Shown here piece after piece: positions 4,574 to 61,771 of a stretch of 64,000 nucleotides of DNA. The number at the start of each line of letters is the position of its first letter. The first letter of the stretch is position 1. The position numbers and the translations under genes are program-made. The DNA comes from Apoda limacodes (lineage: Eukaryota; Arthropoda; Insecta; Lepidoptera; Limacodidae), in the NCBI GenBank assembly GCA_946406115.1, contig OX291545.1:17576001-17640000 (forward strand), written 5' to 3'. The notes beneath the pieces were generated by a model. That model was not told where the DNA came from and did no database searches. It worked only from the letters and a program-made list of their open reading frames with translations.

Positions 4574-4959
4574 GTAATTTGACTACAACCAGAAAACACA
4601 AAAGTGAAATATGAATACATCACAATGAAAGTTAGTATCGAAACTAAACTAAAATATTGTCTTCCGTCATGTTTTTGAAGCAATTTCTTTAAGCGCAGGT
4701 AAATAAACATACATACATAACATCACGCCTGTTTCCTAGACGGGTAGGCAGAGACCAAAGACTGTAACTGACACTGAATCAAAATGCGATGCTTTAAAGG
4801 ATAAATTACATAATTATACGTATCTCTACAAAACAAGCATCCAAACCTACATATGTGTATGTATAAAAAGCATGCAAATAACAAAAATAGGAATATTAGT
4901 ATTCTCGTAAGTTTAGAAAGATTTAAAGCATTTTAAGAATAAAACTTTTGACTGTTAGT

Positions 4960-54836: not shown

Positions 54837-55001
54837 TCACTGCGACAGCAGTTTCTGCAGCAGGCTGGCTCTAGCCGCCGTCGTTGTCGAGGCAGCCGTA
54901 GCCGCAGCCGCCGCCACCGCTGACGCCGCCGCCGCCGCGCCCCCCGCACCCGCCGCCTCATCACCGCCCCCCGCCTCCGCCGAGCCCGCCTCCGTAATAT
55001 T
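54837..55001 (-). CDS. tai: Last coding exon, probable p160 coactivator (taiman/NCOA-like)
   Basis: The acceptor GTTGTGATACAG precedes the exon on the minus strand. Entered in phase 0 from the exon at 57099, it encodes 54 residues: NITEAGSAEAGGGDEAAGAG, an alanine-rich run with Thr/Ser, then AARASLLQKLLSQ and TGA. LQKLL is an LxxLL nuclear-receptor box placed at the very C-terminus. From memory, vertebrate SRC-1a also ends in an LxxLL (LLQQLLTE), which is a main reason for the name. Entered in phase 1 directly from 61610, the same exon reads EYYGGGLGGGGGR and stops at 54961-54963. The plus-strand 135-codon frame over it is a shadow. Composition is extremely GC-rich. Confidence 0.55.
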   Translation of the reverse strand, partial: NITEAGSAEAGGGDEAAGAGGAAAAASAVAAAAATAASTTTAARASLLQKLLSQ

Positions 55002-57098
55002 CTGTATCACAACCAACACTATTTACCACCTGACACCGACGACAACCACTCTACGTGCCATACACTTACGCCACCTCCACACATTCGCCCCAACGATTGC
55101 AATACTCGTATCATTGGGAGTTGGCCGGCACGTATTGTGTCCCAAAGTAAAGATGGCAAGCATAATATACGGGCCAATAATTAGGCCAACGTGCAGAGCC
55201 AGTGTAAAGCTATGATCACATGAATAAATATGACAGAAAGGAAGCGCTTTGAGAAAGCCAAAAATTTTTACCTATTCCTATAAGTTTCTAACTTTTTGGC
55301 GTGATTCTAAAGCGTAGCGTAACTTTTGACATTGCTTGGTACTCAAATATTTTTCTTTGTCCCTGTTGTAGACAGTATGAAGGCGTGCTTCATATCCAGA
55401 TATACAAAATTTAGAACCATTGCAAAATCTAAATTGTTCACTGTTAGTTAAAGAAAAATGAGGCCTTGCGCGCAACCTGTAGTAGCCCTTTACAACCCAT
55501 ATGTGAACCTGTCCTTATGAAGCTAGTCACATACACGATTTTGAAGGCGCGCGATTTTGTAGTGTAAATATTTTTCAGCTTTATTCTGCGCGTCGCTTCT
55601 GCTTTTATTTATTCATGCAACTATGATTTAATTTATCTTTTCGAATCACAGATAAATTATGTATATGCTATACACCTCTTAAGAGGTAATTTATTTCATT
55701 CTTCATACAATTTGCTTTTTAATTCTAATCACTTGTTTATAGGGCTTTTAAGATTTGGCGTAAAAAGAAAACTTACCAACTCTACTCCAAAAAGTTTTAC
55801 TTAGAAATAATGAATAGTTTTTTTTAAGGACATGTTACCCAACAAACTTTTACAGTAATACATGGAATGTAAAAAATGTAGTCATTTATTGGCAATAATC
55901 ATTAGTTACCCATCGATCGATACGTTAAAAAAGGAGGTAAAACACACGACACATTTCTATGAAATTTCTAGAAAAAAATGTAGGTCAATATTTTGAAAAA
56001 AAAAATTGAACCGGTATAAATTCAGCAAAATTTTATCATGCATGTTGTGTATTAAGGTGAAACCGATTTAGATTACTTTCATACAACTTTCATTACATTA
56101 AATATCTATAACTATCAATATGTTGCATATCAAAACGCGTTAACATATATCGATACATACGATTGGCGGAAAAATCTTATGTTCATCCTTAAAATGTCAT
56201 TCTATTACTAAATAACCACAAATATTATTGAATTAATTCAATAAATTATATCTATAACAACTTTGATTATTTCAAAAATCACTGGCATTAAATGGAAATA
56301 ATATATGCTTCTGGCACCAGTTTTGGATATAATGCGTTTTAAGTAGCGTCATATTTATAGTTAAATGATGTTAAATGTTACGCAGTTCGTATGAAAAAAG
56401 TGGATCAAATTCACCTTAACTCTATCTACGAAACTTAATAAATAAAACTATCAATCTGTACGCTAGGAGAACATTTCATAAGCAAACAAATAAGCAGATA
56501 AACTAATTGCAAAAACTGTAATGTAGTACCAACACTACTACACACAACCCTCACCACGGCGTACCCGCCGGCGCATGCCATCACCGGCATTGCCACGAAA
56601 TGAATTGAGTAAACCTTAAAAGCAGATGATCTACCATACTATGTAATTCATAAAATTGACGATAAATACTACAATACTTCGGTATAAAACAGTATCACTA
56701 GATAGAAAAGAATCACCAGACATCACATCACAAAAGCGTCTTTCGATAACTCTAGAAATGCACCAATTGACTTAATTTTTGCACACACATTATTGGACTC
56801 ATATCCGAAGTCAATTCCTATACGTACATAATTACATAACAATTTGTAATTTTTTTAATAATTTAAAATTTGAAGTACTTATTGAATATATTCGGCGAGT
56901 TTTGGCACATTTCTTTATATCAGCAACTAAAGATCGAGAAGGTCGATCGACAAACATACGCAGCAGAACAGACGCAATACGTAAATAATCAAAGTCAAAT
57001 CTACAAAAAACAATGGAAACCGATAAGAAAAGTAGAAGAGTGGCTATTTTTCGTCGCAGGACGCGTCCCAAGCTTACCGAGACGCGTCCCAAGCTTAC
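55002..57098 (-). other. Intron
   Basis: Between the 57099 donor (GTAAGC) and the 55001 acceptor. AT-rich with a few GC-richer spots (near 56560, GGCGTACCCGCCGGCGCATG). No further exon is supported. Confidence 0.45.
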
Positions 57099-57166
57099 CG
57101 AGATGTGTTGCGACTCCCACGCATTTGCCGACGCAGAAGCTCGGCCCCCCACCTCATTGCCGCCAC
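57099..57166 (-). CDS. tai: 68-nt cassette exon, probable p160 coactivator
   Basis: On the minus strand the acceptor GTGTGCGTACGTAG and the donor CTCG-GTAAGC enclose 68 nt. Joined in phase 1 to the 61610 exon (G + GT) it reads GGGNEVGGRASASANAWESQ then HIS, ending exactly in phase 0. That is the phase needed for the last exon to reach the LxxLL. Because 68 is not a multiple of three, skipping it shifts the last exon. A 21-bp direct duplication (57058-57078 and 57079-57099) repeats the donor: using the second GTAAGC (exon 57078-57166) adds VSLGRVS in frame. The acceptor has a weak pyrimidine tract, so this exon is the least certain of the three. Confidence 0.45.
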
Positions 57167-57401
57167 CTACGTACGCACACACGTATACATTGACAGGGTA
57201 TAACCCCTACACTGACAATGTTTAAACACATCGCTCAGTGTTTCTTTGTTCTAACCTAATGTTACTACAGTCTCTTTGCAAACGGCGTAACATTATTTTC
57301 GGAAACACTAATGTTATGTGCCTTTGACCGTTTTTACAAGACAATGTTAGTATTTCAAAACTACCAAATCATGAAAAATCTTTTTAGCATCATGTACCTA
57401 C
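57167..57401 (-). other. Intron
   Basis: AT-rich; no feature. Confidence 0.4.
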
Positions 57402-57527
57402 TTGGAAGTTATACGGCATGTAGGCGAGGTAGTACCAGGTGCCGATATATGTCTTTGACAAACAGACGCGCGACTGGTCTGCCTTCACTTTAACTTGCCG
57501 CGCGAGTCGAGATCCTATAGCGGCCAT
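57402..57527 (-). CDS. 42-codon exon candidate with GTWY (lipocalin-like) signature
   Basis: ATG at 57527 opens MAAIGSRLARQVKVKADQSR then VCLSKTYIGTWYYLAYMPYN and FQ, followed by GTAGGT as possible donor; read through, it stops after VGT. YIGTWYYLAYMPYNF resembles the first strand of a lipocalin (GxW...P..F), but only this strand is present. Entering at the CAG before CTATGG would put it in phase 1, so it could also be an alternative last exon of the surrounding coactivator gene. Codon choice is GC-rich and the frame is clean, but a chance frame cannot be excluded. Confidence 0.25.
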
Positions 57528-59099
57528 AGCTGCGTTCTAAACACGCGCAAGACTAATAGTGATAAATTCGCCATATCTGAACAATTTCTAAGGCTCTATA
57601 AGAGGCTCATTCTTAATTGTTTTGTAGTTAGTATCTCTTAAATTCTGTTACAACAGTATTCAGTTTGAGAGGTGGTTACGAGTTGCTTTCTAATACGGAA
57701 AGGAAAGGATCCCTTATAGTTCCGTTCTGACCGACCGTCCATCCGTTGATTTGGCACAGCCTGATAATTCTGCCATCAATGAAGATACAAAAATGCTTGC
57801 TTTCTCATCAAACACGATTAAGGAATATTTTCTTTCGCGCATTTTAGGGATATTTTCTTTCACGCATCTCAACATAAAAAGTTAATTTTGAAAATGTATC
57901 TAATAATTTTAGATCAAAAGTGTTTTCTTTTAATTATTATTTTGTATTTACTATCTACTATCTGATATTATCTATTTCTTATCTGCATTGTGTGGCTATT
58001 TTTTACATAACATCACTAAATTAAAATTATCACACTAGCGGACACCTGAACGACCTGTTTTTAGCCTTTTTTTAAATAATATAATTAAATGATAATAAAA
58101 AAACCTTTATACATAAGCATCAGAAATATGATCAATATTTTGAACTATAAACCAATATTAATCATATTTTATTTTTTCGGCAAATAAAAAGTGAACTCCT
58201 AATAATATTATACTTTTATCATTTTTACAACAGCTGCATTATTATTTAATTAAATAATTTTTAATATTACTTTAACAATAACCTATCCAACTGCATTATA
58301 ACCGTATGTACAATAGACCAAATCGCCGGTAGACCATTTAAAAGATCAGGGGCGTGGGCCACGCCTTCAACTTTTTTTTGTCAATTACAGGAAACGATTT
58401 TGTTTTGCATTAATTTACCTGTTTGAGTAAAATTATAAGCACAAATGTAAGCGTATGGTTTGCCCCGCGCTCCGTGAAGAAAGGTGCGAGCGAAATCAAT
58501 ATTAATGATGATTCGGCAAAGTTTTTGCCGACTGTAAAGCTCATACAACAAATCTTAATATTAAATCTTTTTTAGTTTTTTTGCCGCATAGTTCATATCT
58601 AGCTTTAGCCCAACTTTATGTGACCTTTTTTATCAAGTTTATATTTTGGTAATCATTAGTTTGATTCTGTCGATATTCAACATCTTAAAGATCTTGTTGA
58701 AAAACATGTACTGCCAATGAAAGTGTACAATTTAGGACTTTGTCACATTACAATTTCATTCGATTCCATTTCGTGCATTGTTTCATGTATGACTTTATCG
58801 CTTCGCAGTTAACGGAAACTTTTGAACATTGAACGACATGCCTTAATCGTGGTAATCGACAAGATACTTATCGGTTACCATGGAATTTTTGCTTTTAACG
58901 AATGTGTAGTCATTTGGTATGACAACTTTACATCATCTATACCAATATTATAATTCCGGAAGCTAATATGTTTGACGTAAAGGAGTAACGTGTCGCAAAG
59001 GCGCATCCAATTCAGCTGCAATTTAGCACAGGGATAGTTAAAGAGACGGAGAAGAACATAATTGTTTAATTCCGGTAAATTCAAAAGTTTGCGCGGGAG
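57528..59099 (-). other. Intron (continued)
   Basis: 57660-57790 contains a fragment of the GGGTTCCGT family (CCTTATAGTTCCGTTCTGAC, CGACCGTCCATCCGTTGA). GGCGTGGGCCACGCC at 58352 is nearly palindromic. Otherwise AT-rich. Confidence 0.4.
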
Positions 59100-59233
59100 T
59101 TATTATAACCGAATTCCACGTGGACGAAATGTAGCTACAGCTTTTGCAAACTTATTGCTAATTAACTAGAGTTGCCTAGAAATCCCACGCCGATAATCGA
59201 TTTTTCGCGGGCGAATCCGCAGCCAAAAGCTAG
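59100..59233 (+). mobile_element. Helitron-like 3'-end fragment
   Basis: GAATTCCACGTGGACGAAAT, TCCCACGCCGATAATCGAT, CGCGGGCGAATCCGCAGCC, then AAAAGCTAG ending 59233 before T. The subterminal GCGGGCGAATCCGC forms the hairpin. Confidence 0.65.
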
Positions 59234-60048
59234 TTTTCTTATACTACTACTTCAAAATTATGTATTTAAACAAAAACACTACATAGAATCAAGCTGAGCT
59301 GAGTATGTTTTACAAAAGCTCCACATTTTGTAATACATACAATTTAATAACGATAGTTTGACGTAATTTCACGTCAGTGTCGATGACCTTGTTTAGCAAA
59401 ATGACAAGATTCTATATTCATTTTTTTTTTTCAAATTAAGTTTTTACAAAAGTTATGAAATAAATATAATAACAAAGGCGCTCAACATTTCAAAAATATA
59501 AAATAAACTAGTTGTCATACTTGCTATTAGTGGTAGAAGTGGTTCCGTAAATGTTAAATGTAATATATACATATTTCTTTTGTTGGGAACACTATTTGTC
59601 TTAATTGATTATGATCTCGTTTCATATATTTGTATAATTTTTAGGAAAAGAGAAAAAGCCTAAAAGTAAGAGAAAACTATAAAACCTTCGCATTTCGCTA
59701 AGTCCCAAAAAGAAGGTACTTGTACTGCCTAACTTGTTCACTATATCAGCCTTATTTACAACTATTGATGATTGATTAGAGCGCAGCTTATTTGTATCTC
59801 CCTTACACACGTCATACTCTCTTATGATCATTTGACACGAATCAACTGAAAAATAGAAGCTTAGAATTTTAGTGCAGTAATGATGCACATTCTTGATCGG
59901 TTAATAGTTTGCACTGCTCTTCTGAAATAACTAAACTGCGGGGAAACATCCGTAAGCCATATTAACTTGGTATCAAATTTTTTTTTTAACCGCAAATTAA
60001 AAATAATTATGAAAAAGTAAATGTATCAGATTTTAATAGTGTATTTCG
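59234..60048. other. Intron, no recognised feature
   Basis: AT-rich. An 88-codon minus frame at 59622-59888 has no motif. Confidence 0.4.
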
Positions 60049-60560
60049 TACTAAGTACAAAATGACGCTTTTTCTTACCCGAGGGAAGCAGCTAGTTTCG
60101 ACGTTAACTGAAGGCGAACTGTTTTGTTCTGGCTATGCTTTGGCAGCTTCGCACAATATTTTTTTTATTCATTTTGTAAGGCATGGATTCAAGTCGTTTA
60201 GCCTAGCAAAACACGTAACAATAGTGCAACCCAAATAAGTGAATTGTAACGTTAAAGTAAAAGTAATTAAAGTTATTTTTGACAATTACTTAAACAATCG
60301 TTTTGGTGCAATCCAGCCTAAGATAAAAAAAAATTCATGTTGTCCCGCAAAAATGTAAGTCTGAAGCGGCCAGCATCATTCTCGCTGGTCTATTGGCCGC
60401 CCGCTGGCGACGTCATATCTTTCTTATACGGCCGCGCTAAAAATAAAACTGGCCACATCGAGTACGAAATGGAATCTCATACGGTTTTTCGAACTGACAT
60501 GGGAGTTGTTTCGCACCCAAAATGTTCGATTTTCGAAACTGAGTTTCTATGGAACTTTGG
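60049..60560 (+). mobile_element. Dispersed element D, copy 2
   Basis: TACAAAATGACGCTTTTTCT, CTAGTTTCGACGTTAACTG, CCAGCATCATTCTCGCTGGT, TTGGCCGCCCGCTGGCGACG, GGCCGCGCTAAAAATAAAAC and TTCGATTTTCGAAACTGAG occur in the same order as in the minus-strand copy at 46985-47491. The 80-codon plus frame is the repeat read through. Confidence 0.75.
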
Positions 60561-61609
60561 AACTTTTTATAGCAGGTAGTAGAAAAACCTTTTTTTGTGC
60601 CCACTCTGATAGTGGATAGAGCCTCTGTCTCTTCACGCTGACTATGTACTTGCCGCCGCGTCCTAGACGGTTCAATTTGGTGGACTTGCAATTTTCATCC
60701 CTTGTACTTCGGATTTCTGAATTTTACAAATCCTATAAAACTTTCCTCGAATTTATGATTAGGGTAATTAATATCAACATATAAAGCTTACTAAAGATTA
60801 CAAAAAGTTTTATATGTGGAAAGATAAAACACTACTTGTCATTACAGTAAAGGCCAATTGACGTTTACAAACACCTTTCTAAGAATTAGTGAAGTTTACT
60901 AATAACAAACATCATATCGTACCGCTACGAATCAAGGTTGACGTCACGAGTCCTACATTGCGCTATTACAGTTTCTTTGGTAGTTCGCATGTATACAAAT
61001 GGACCACGGTTTTCTATAACCTTCTATTCCCTATAACCGCCACTTCACATTTGGTGATCATAAGCTGAACAAATTTGACGTACCGCCACAGCCCTTCATC
61101 TACCGGGTACACGAACCAGTTGTTAATCGTTCGCTTCGCATCACAGAGGTTCTCCAGGAATTATCGGTGTAATTAACGCTTATTGTAAGCGTGTTACGTT
61201 ATTTCATTCCAATAAATTTTACTTGTTTTTTGTAAACAACACTGTTATTCCAACAAGACTAGTTTTTTTCATGTTAGTAAATACAATAAGTAAAACTCAT
61301 TAATAACCGTCAGTGTAATTTACTTGTCCTCGGAATTACTAATATTTTAGTGGTTATTAGTATAATTTACTTGTGCCTACTTAAGTTTTTTTTCTCTGTG
61401 TATAAAGGGCATAAATATAAGAAATTTTGAATGTAAAATGTGTGAAACGGTAAGCAGTATTGAGGGTTCCCGGCGTGGTAATATCGACTACCTCTCATTT
61501 CCTGTGATCACCGCGAAGAACGTTGACACAGTAACCGCTCCAGGCACGAATTTAAGGGATATTGAGTGACAAATGGATGAGAGTCGAGTAGTAAGCAAAT
61601 GGTCATTAC
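60561..61609 (-). other. Intron
   Basis: Between the element and the donor at 61609. No further exon recognised; TTGCCGCCGCGTCCTAGACG near 60650 is locally GC-rich. Confidence 0.4.
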
Positions 61610-61771
61610 CAGGCGCGGCCATGTCGAAGGTCATAAGCGGGTCTAGTTCTTGGGGCTGCATCTGGTGCAGGTCGGGGCGGTGCGAGCGAGCTCCGACCAC
61701 GGCCCGAAGCTCGTTGCGAACATACTCAGACGTACCCGCCACGTTGCTCACGCCGCCGCCATTGCCTGTGC
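61610..61771 (-). CDS. tai: Internal coding exon, probable p160 coactivator (taiman/NCOA-like)
   Basis: Minus-strand acceptor TTTGATATGTAG and donor GCGCCTG-GTAATG enclose 162 nt, entered with two bases (GC) and left in phase 1. It encodes TGNGGGVSNVAGTSEYVRNE then LRAVVGARSHRPDLHQMQPQ and ELDPLMTFDMAAP. The EYVRNELRAVVGAR segment is the most conserved-looking stretch in the window; I associate it with the C-terminal region of insect taiman/NCOA proteins, from memory only. Taiman is a bHLH-PAS coactivator of ecdysone-receptor and Met signalling in the nucleus. Coding composition is strongly GC-rich against AT-rich introns. Earlier exons (bHLH, PAS, central LxxLL boxes) must lie beyond 64000. 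Confidence 0.6.

Follow-up and report, generated by a model that had tools for sequence, protein, structure and literature searches.

A predicted two-way C-terminal switch at the 3′ end of taiman in the moth Apoda limacodes

Alternative 3′ ends have been described for taiman, the gene of the insect p160/SRC coactivator, in several insects, and we compare them here with the 3′ end of taiman in a 64,000-nucleotide (nt) stretch of the Apoda limacodes genome (contig OX291545.1, positions 17,576,001 to 17,640,000; hereafter the window). Statements on published systems refer to excerpts of the sources cited. In Blattella germanica, a 74-nt insertion near the C-terminus (indel-2, the inserted form being IN-2) begins at nt 4771 of the 4914-bp open reading frame, and its loss shifts the frame and brings an early stop; all four indel combinations were recovered by 3′ rapid amplification of cDNA ends, and the two known Tribolium sequences had no indel-2 equivalent (PMC4214675, Lozano et al. 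2014). In Leptinotarsa decemlineata, alternative splicing affects the penultimate exon (E13 of 14) and some isoforms lack E11 or E12 (PMC6584964), while Pyrrhocoris taiman has alternative 3′ exons (PMC10511111). In Aedes aegypti, juvenile hormone (JH) signalling moves Tai splicing toward the A/B isoforms, whose binding to the ecdysone receptor complex is stronger than that of C/D (reviews PMC13126561, PMC7901893). Among p160 coactivators, SRC-1 also has isoforms with differing C-termini (PMC13199265); in mouse, inclusion of exon 22, which holds an earlier stop, gives the shorter SRC-1e, and skipping gives SRC-1a (PMC3551673).

Given the variants described in Blattella, Leptinotarsa and Pyrrhocoris, the splicing event predicted in Apoda is not new in kind, a frameshifting taiman 3′ insertion being known from Blattella. 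The Apoda locus and indel-2 share the gene, the protein end and a non-triplet insertion of 2 mod 3 length (68 nt here, 74 nt there), but the Blattella account, as excerpted, speaks of truncation only and mentions neither a terminal LxxLL nor a conserved other tail (PMC4214675). Leptinotarsa E13 occupies the position expected for the cassette, with no frame or tail analysis in the excerpt (PMC6584964). The reading we favour, and consider very likely, is that the 3′ end of taiman forms a two-way C-terminal switch, through a cassette of 2 mod 3 length and a last exon read in two frames. As in non-triplet dual-coding exons, splice choice would set the frame of a shared exon without nonsense-mediated decay (NMD); the overlap of ~41 nt, stop included, is below the 60-nt dual-coding threshold of that study, where it would count as an alternative C-terminus, and its main text contains neither taiman nor Ncoa1 (PMC13247117). 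Among the literature matches listed, none stated that the taiman switch concerns a terminal LxxLL, of which Liu et al. 2018 (Aedes) may hold part, and none stated that a second tail is conserved or that one exon codes both, Liu et al. 2018 lying outside the coverage. No taiman title was among the matches listed for the tail peptides (FFGGN, YYGGG, LLQKLLSE, LLQKLLSD and LLQKLLSQ), and a text search gave no paper joining taiman with reading frame, exon and C-terminus.

The taiman locus and its 3′ exon chain

With the cassette (e2) included, the three minus-strand exons of Table 1 form an open chain that reads ...MTFDMAAPGGGNEVGGRASASANAWESQHISNITEAGSAEAGGGDEAAG...ARASLLQKLLSQ-stop. Skipping it yields ...MTFDMAAPEYYGGGLGGGGGR-stop, the last exon (e3) then giving EYYGGGLGGGGGR followed by two consecutive stops, of which the first, by codon count, is a TGA at 54961-54963. 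On sequence inspection, the upstream exon (e1) has an AG acceptor, the GT donor GTAATG and an open frame, and e2 is bordered by an AG acceptor and the donor GTAAGC. Because the cassette length is 2 mod 3, its inclusion or skipping sets the frame of e3, and the Gly-Asp of the LxxLL frame contains the CGG TGA (Arg-stop) of the skip frame. Within the three exons the terminal LxxLL is the sole one. Both stops are located in the last exon, and thus, by general rules, neither splice form should be an NMD target. The phase-matched join ending in SLLQKLLSQ, the shift on skipping to a tail with that TGA and no LxxLL, and the two tails of one GC-rich last exon had all been claimed in a first-pass annotation; borders and translation bore out the first two, and both predicted tails are found in records from relatives.

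Table 1. Features at the 3′ end of taiman in the window.
Feature	Positions	Strand	Length	Content
Upstream exon (e1)	61610..61771	minus	162 nt	codes TGNGGGVSNVAGTSEYVRNELRAVVGARSHRPDLHQMQPQELDPLMTFDMAAP + base 1 of junction codon
Cassette exon (e2)	57099..57166	minus	68 nt (2 mod 3)	codes GGNEVGGRASASANAWESQHIS in inclusion frame
Last exon (e3), coding part	54837..55001	minus	165 nt, incl. LxxLL-frame stop	AG acceptor GATACAG
Two-frame segment	54961..55001	minus		inclusion NITEAGSAEAGGG(D); skipping (E)YYGGGLGGGGGR-stop (direct translation)
Terminal LxxLL motif LQKLL	54846..54860	minus		inside SLLQKLLSQ-stop (direct translation)
Tandem duplication	57061..57099	minus	21 bp	18-bp unit present in two exact copies, at 57061 and 57082 (21 bp apart)

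Searched against proteins, as had been proposed in advance, the 130 residues joined from the three exons gave 14 matches. The top match was Heliothis virescens A0A2A4JZ97 (P0001; E = 5e-20), whose end, GGGSVVGGRASSASTNSWESQQSTPASLLQKLLSQ, holds both the cassette and the LxxLL tail; the remaining 13 were short unnamed pieces around exon 1. When long proteins were scored on exon 1 only, eight lepidopteran proteins were listed with PAS_11. A Pfam scan of three relatives (P0015, P0018 and P0020) recorded PAS_11 above cut-off (E 5e-11 to 7e-10) and bHLH_NCOA slightly below its cut-off of 27 (23.7-26.8 bits; E 8e-6 to 7e-5), and these relatives are taiman/p160 proteins. In the source genome (31 contigs, 800 Mb), all eight matches of Arctia taiman were on one contig and the same strand. 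In window-extended coordinates, matches run collinearly from ~88.9 to 57.1 kb, and the last exon follows at 55.0-54.8 kb. On that strand, just beyond the window, the bHLH and PAS matches fell at 74.2-88.9 kb, and regions downstream of these domains matched there as well. The collinear same-strand matches therefore place the taiman 3′ end in the window, and the gene, which the first-pass annotation had named as taiman only conditionally, is by homology the lepidopteran taiman. A near-C-terminal block of insect taiman, E[YF]VR[NQ]ELRAVVGAR, common to Lepidoptera, is present in e1 as TSEYVRNELRAVVGAR, and many beetle records carry the version TSEFVRQELRAVVGAR. The eight lepidopteran relatives first retrieved have 5 to 8 LxxLL strings per protein. 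Solved structures searched with Arctia taiman gave no match at E <= 0.001.

Proteins of relatives were aligned to the window by tblastn with low-complexity filtering off. Arctia taiman (P0015) aligned with all three exons, in the proposed order and on the minus strand (E = 1e-19, 0.001 and 9e-5), the e2 peptide corresponding to its GGGSLVGGRATSASANSWESQ (E = 0.001), and e2-like stretches were also present in Helicoverpa, Heliothis and Chilo proteins. Five taiman ends (Arctia, Helicoverpa, Pieris, Plodia and Amyelois) aligned with e3 at E values between 9e-5 and 0.003; for Leguminivora isoform X3 (P0018) the alignment was to the skip frame, EYYGGGLGGGGG (E = 0.002). Since the opposite strand of the GC-rich e3 gave chance matches at E ~0.001 to 0.006, such weak E-values prove little by themselves. 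With filtering on, four queries missed the last exon and one of the four (P0015) found the 68-nt exon (E = 5e-4). The case for the exon chain is carried by its exact order, its borders and the identical tail strings in relatives. A wrong exon chain, or a gene other than taiman, was rejected on the ordered exon matches together with the collinear same-strand taiman matches.

Three further features of the exons were recorded. The tandem duplication supplies e2 with two identical GTAAGC donors, and splicing from the distal one would lengthen e2 by seven in-frame codons, VSLGRVS. In e3, the alanine-rich stretch between Gly-Asp and LxxLL (54840-54960, minus strand) exceeds that in the five long lepidopteran LxxLL proteins. 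The pyrimidine fraction at acceptor positions -5 to -25 was 0.48 for the cassette, 0.43 for the last exon and 0.52 for the upstream exon; as the last of these is scarcely richer, acceptor pyrimidine content fails to single out regulated exons.

Two C-terminal tails in relatives

A profile search retrieved 71 long taiman-like proteins (P0015-P0085; 811-2226 residues, some partial), by their names from Lepidoptera, Coleoptera and Diptera, along with four unnamed records; Hymenoptera, Hemiptera, Blattodea and Crustacea lie outside this set. Each record stands for a 90%-identity cluster; some species supply several (four for Bactrocera dorsalis), and isoforms may be hidden among them. A terminal LxxLL tail, defined as SLLQ[KQ]LLS[EDQ] or SLLLQKLLSD at the C-terminus or a few residues before it, was present in 19 of the 71, representing 19 species (5 Lepidoptera, 11 beetles and 3 mosquitoes). 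An aromatic-glycine tail ending in Arg, [DE][FYH][FY][GS][GSN]...R, was present in 33 (26 species). The other 19 had neither tail, being short, reading on past an exon or having other endings. Judged by these protein records, each of the three orders has both types of end.

Within Lepidoptera, the cassette and the LxxLL end occur together in the long proteins of Arctia, Pieris, Helicoverpa, Plodia and Amyelois and in the shorter Heliothis P0001, all of which end in ASLLQKLLSQ. Directly after the cassette, the five long proteins read NTTEA or STTEA, corresponding to NITEA at 55001 in the window. Leguminivora isoform X3 ends SEYYGGGLGGGGGGGGPR, that is, in the skip reading, and the skip tail of the window recurs in it nearly letter for letter (EYYGGGLGGGGGGGGPR). 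Its e1 is joined to EYYGGGLGGGG, as the same e3 acceptor would yield.

The greater number of aromatic tails could mean that the aromatic-glycine-arginine tail is the main functional end and the nuclear receptor (NR) box an occasional add-on, a view we consider unlikely. The ratio of 33 to 19 points that way, although it counts 90%-identity representatives with repeated species, such as the four Bactrocera dorsalis records, and possibly hidden isoforms. So do the records that we take to be brachyceran flies (P0050 and P0066-P0085), with an aromatic tail in 19 of 21 and a terminal LxxLL in none; the cassette or the NR-box form may have been lost in these flies, or the 90% clustering could hide it. 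Among beetle and lepidopteran records, however, LxxLL tails outnumber aromatic ones (16 to 4), and an NCOA1 peptide of like form serves as a cofactor peptide in crystals of the glucocorticoid and mineralocorticoid receptors.

Overlapping reading frames in the last exon

Constraint on the overlap was tested by back-translation of relatives' proteins and with the window's own codons. Dynamic programming over synonymous codons determined where a stretch can also code [DE][FY][FY]G[GS] one frame over, after the G of the upstream exon. A near-end compatible site was found in all 19 LxxLL tails. Its distance to the C-terminus was 22 residues in eight beetles, 26 or 27 in three beetles with a few extra end residues, 24 in three mosquitoes and 28 to 43 in five Lepidoptera. 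In the Lepidoptera this site falls on the residue aligned with the window's exon border; two of them have a second site 60 residues from the end. Across whole proteins, 92 of 27,500 positions were compatible, near-end sites included.

Eleven exact tails were then queried against the same 19 proteins (27,500 positions). The mosquito tail EFFGGNTSR-stop was encodable at three positions (SSSEAIRVGD, NFSEETRVGD and NFSEEIRVGD), one per mosquito LxxLL protein, each 24 residues from the end at the inferred junction. The Psylliodes tail EYYGGGSTR-stop was encodable at one, NTMEEARQGD of Diorhabda, presumably a leaf beetle like Psylliodes, at the beetle junction. The window's EYYGGGLGGG was encodable at three, which were the Arctia, Pieris and Helicoverpa junctions. 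When the window's LxxLL-frame peptide was given random synonymous codons, [DE][FY][FY]GG...R-stop arose in 1.05% of 100,000 draws at a third-position GC content (GC3) of 0.5, and the same pattern in 0.53% of 100,000 draws at GC3 0.8; the GC3 of e3 is 0.75. The Arg that ends the skip tails would follow from the conserved Gly-Asp, which as (A/C)GG TGA reads Arg-stop one frame over; Leptinotarsa P0045 has Thr-Asp where others have Gly-Asp. On these indirect tests the overlap may well be conserved as a two-frame message, and it is compatible with one double message. Two open e3 frames arising by GC-rich chance were rejected, given the skip tail in the Leguminivora isoform and the ~1% of recodings that yield such a tail. 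The presence of both tails in three orders, with an overlap that accords with a shared double message, strengthens the result beyond the first-pass claim.

The LxxLL form might still be the only one that matters, with the cassette effectively constitutive, the skip reading a rare by-product and its tail only a truncation. The Blattella skip form is described merely as slightly truncated (PMC4214675), five of the six long lepidopteran proteins that reach a tail have the inclusion form, Chilo and Eumeta records also hold a cassette yet end before the last exon, and in Apoda the skip form is predicted from DNA. An unconstrained by-product is not expected to keep its sequence, however, whereas an aromatic tail terminates 33 of the 71 records, across three orders, synonymous recoding reproduces the window's overlap in ~1% of draws and the three fitting exact tails match 1 to 3 of 27,500 positions each. 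We therefore regard the by-product explanation as improbable, and prefer a switch between two ends.

Weighing the proposed switch and its meaning

Several observations weigh against such a switch. In Apoda limacodes it is predicted from the DNA sequence, and the records of relatives mostly look like automated gene models, whose annotation is not proof of expression. Cassette lengths implied by the proteins (74, 62, 74, 59 and 56 nt in Lepidoptera, 104 nt in Culex) are 2 mod 3 as a consequence of how the junctions were set, and for beetles and mosquitoes the junctions were deduced from protein sequence only. When the last 60 residues of each of the 19 tails were shuffled, 1148 of 5700 shuffles still held one or more compatible sites (976 with R-stop), and since shuffles yield sites this often, the presence of a site is weak evidence, and position and exact tails carry the weight. 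Of those exact tails, the Psylliodes sequence fits one of 11 beetle LxxLL tails, the window's EYYGGGLGGG fits three of five lepidopteran ones, missing Plodia and Amyelois, and eight of the 11 queries (Brassicogethes, Phlebotomus, Hermetia, chironomid, Bactrocera, Calliphora, and the full Leguminivora and window tails with stops) fit no position in the 19 proteins. For the six non-fitting species tails, the set holds no LxxLL tail of their own group except other beetles and mosquitoes, and that of Brassicogethes has one residue more; for Leguminivora and the window, the full tails fail to fit because the stretch before Gly-Asp varies in length among Lepidoptera. In Blattella, RNA interference against IN-2 forms left the ecdysone- and JH-pathway mRNAs that were measured (EcR, RXR, E75A, Met, Kr-h1 and BR-C) unchanged and survivors normal, at a modest depletion (PMC4214675). 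Finally, Heliothis P0001 runs the cassette straight into ASLLQKLLSQ, without the STTEAG...GGDE segment of Helicoverpa, which would point to a possible third acceptor or a gene-model error; no phase-matched acceptor for such a join was seen in the window by eye. That record, and the failure of e3 to match once the low-complexity filter is on, are what speaks for joining the segments otherwise, by way of an alternative last exon or a different acceptor within 54.8-55.0 kb, but the NTTEA/STTEA residues after the cassette and the Leguminivora junction make this scarcely credible.

The terminal motif has precedents outside insects. The peptide QKSLLQQLLTE is, we assume, the extreme C-terminus of SRC-1a. 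This NCOA1 peptide is resembled by the beetle taiman end KSSLLQKLLSE (PMC5825103, PMC10297449). A glucocorticoid receptor crystal has NCOA1 AQQKSLLQQLLTE as its cofactor peptide (PMC10297449), and for crystallization the mineralocorticoid receptor domain carried PQAQQKSLLQQLLTE as a fusion (PMC5825103), which gives the NR box of the insect form a precedent; one assay peptide for NCOA1 carries an additional A (PMC5825103). The unrelated coactivator peptide PRGC2 contains LSLLQKLL (PMC5825103). The motif may thus be inherited, given the NCOA1 likeness, and equally may be convergent, given PRGC2. As with SRC-1a and SRC-1e, one taiman form, on the window reading and relatives' records, would end in LxxLL and the other in an unrelated tail, but with opposite polarity, inclusion of the insect cassette giving the LxxLL tail (PMC3551673). 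The difference in exon arrangement from vertebrate SRC-1 that the first-pass annotation had expected is borne out by the excerpted account of exon 22. Overall, that first reading was right on the sequence and is supported, conditionally, on its interpretation.

Under the proposed switch, inclusion of the cassette would give a protein that ends in the NR box SLLQKLLSQ, and skipping one that ends in EYYGGGLGGGGGR and lacks it. The NR-box form would gain a docking helix for ecdysone-pathway nuclear receptors at its extreme C-terminus, while the skip form would carry a short aromatic-glycine-arginine end with a putative role, and hormone-controlled splicing could shift the ratio of the two. The likeness to Aedes lies in isoforms chosen by JH; that A/B are the NR-box forms, with A/B against C/D as LxxLL against aromatic tail, is a prediction only. 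For the wider scenario the balance stands about level: one exon would hold two separately selected overlapping peptides, an NR box and an aromatic-glycine-arginine tail with a partner of its own, that predate the split of beetles, moths and flies, its cassette would be under hormonal control, with JH tuning the service of taiman to ecdysone receptors, and SRC-1 would follow the opposite logic.

Taiman is the meeting point of JH and ecdysone signalling, and its 3′ isoforms are known to matter. If our reading is true, the switched part would have a name, the terminal receptor-binding helix, and the other tail would have a conserved sequence. It would also predict which Aedes isoforms bind the ecdysone receptor complex. 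The last exon would then be a concise example of two-frame coding maintained across deep insect time, and the p160 genes of insects and mammals would control a like terminal motif with opposite exon logic.

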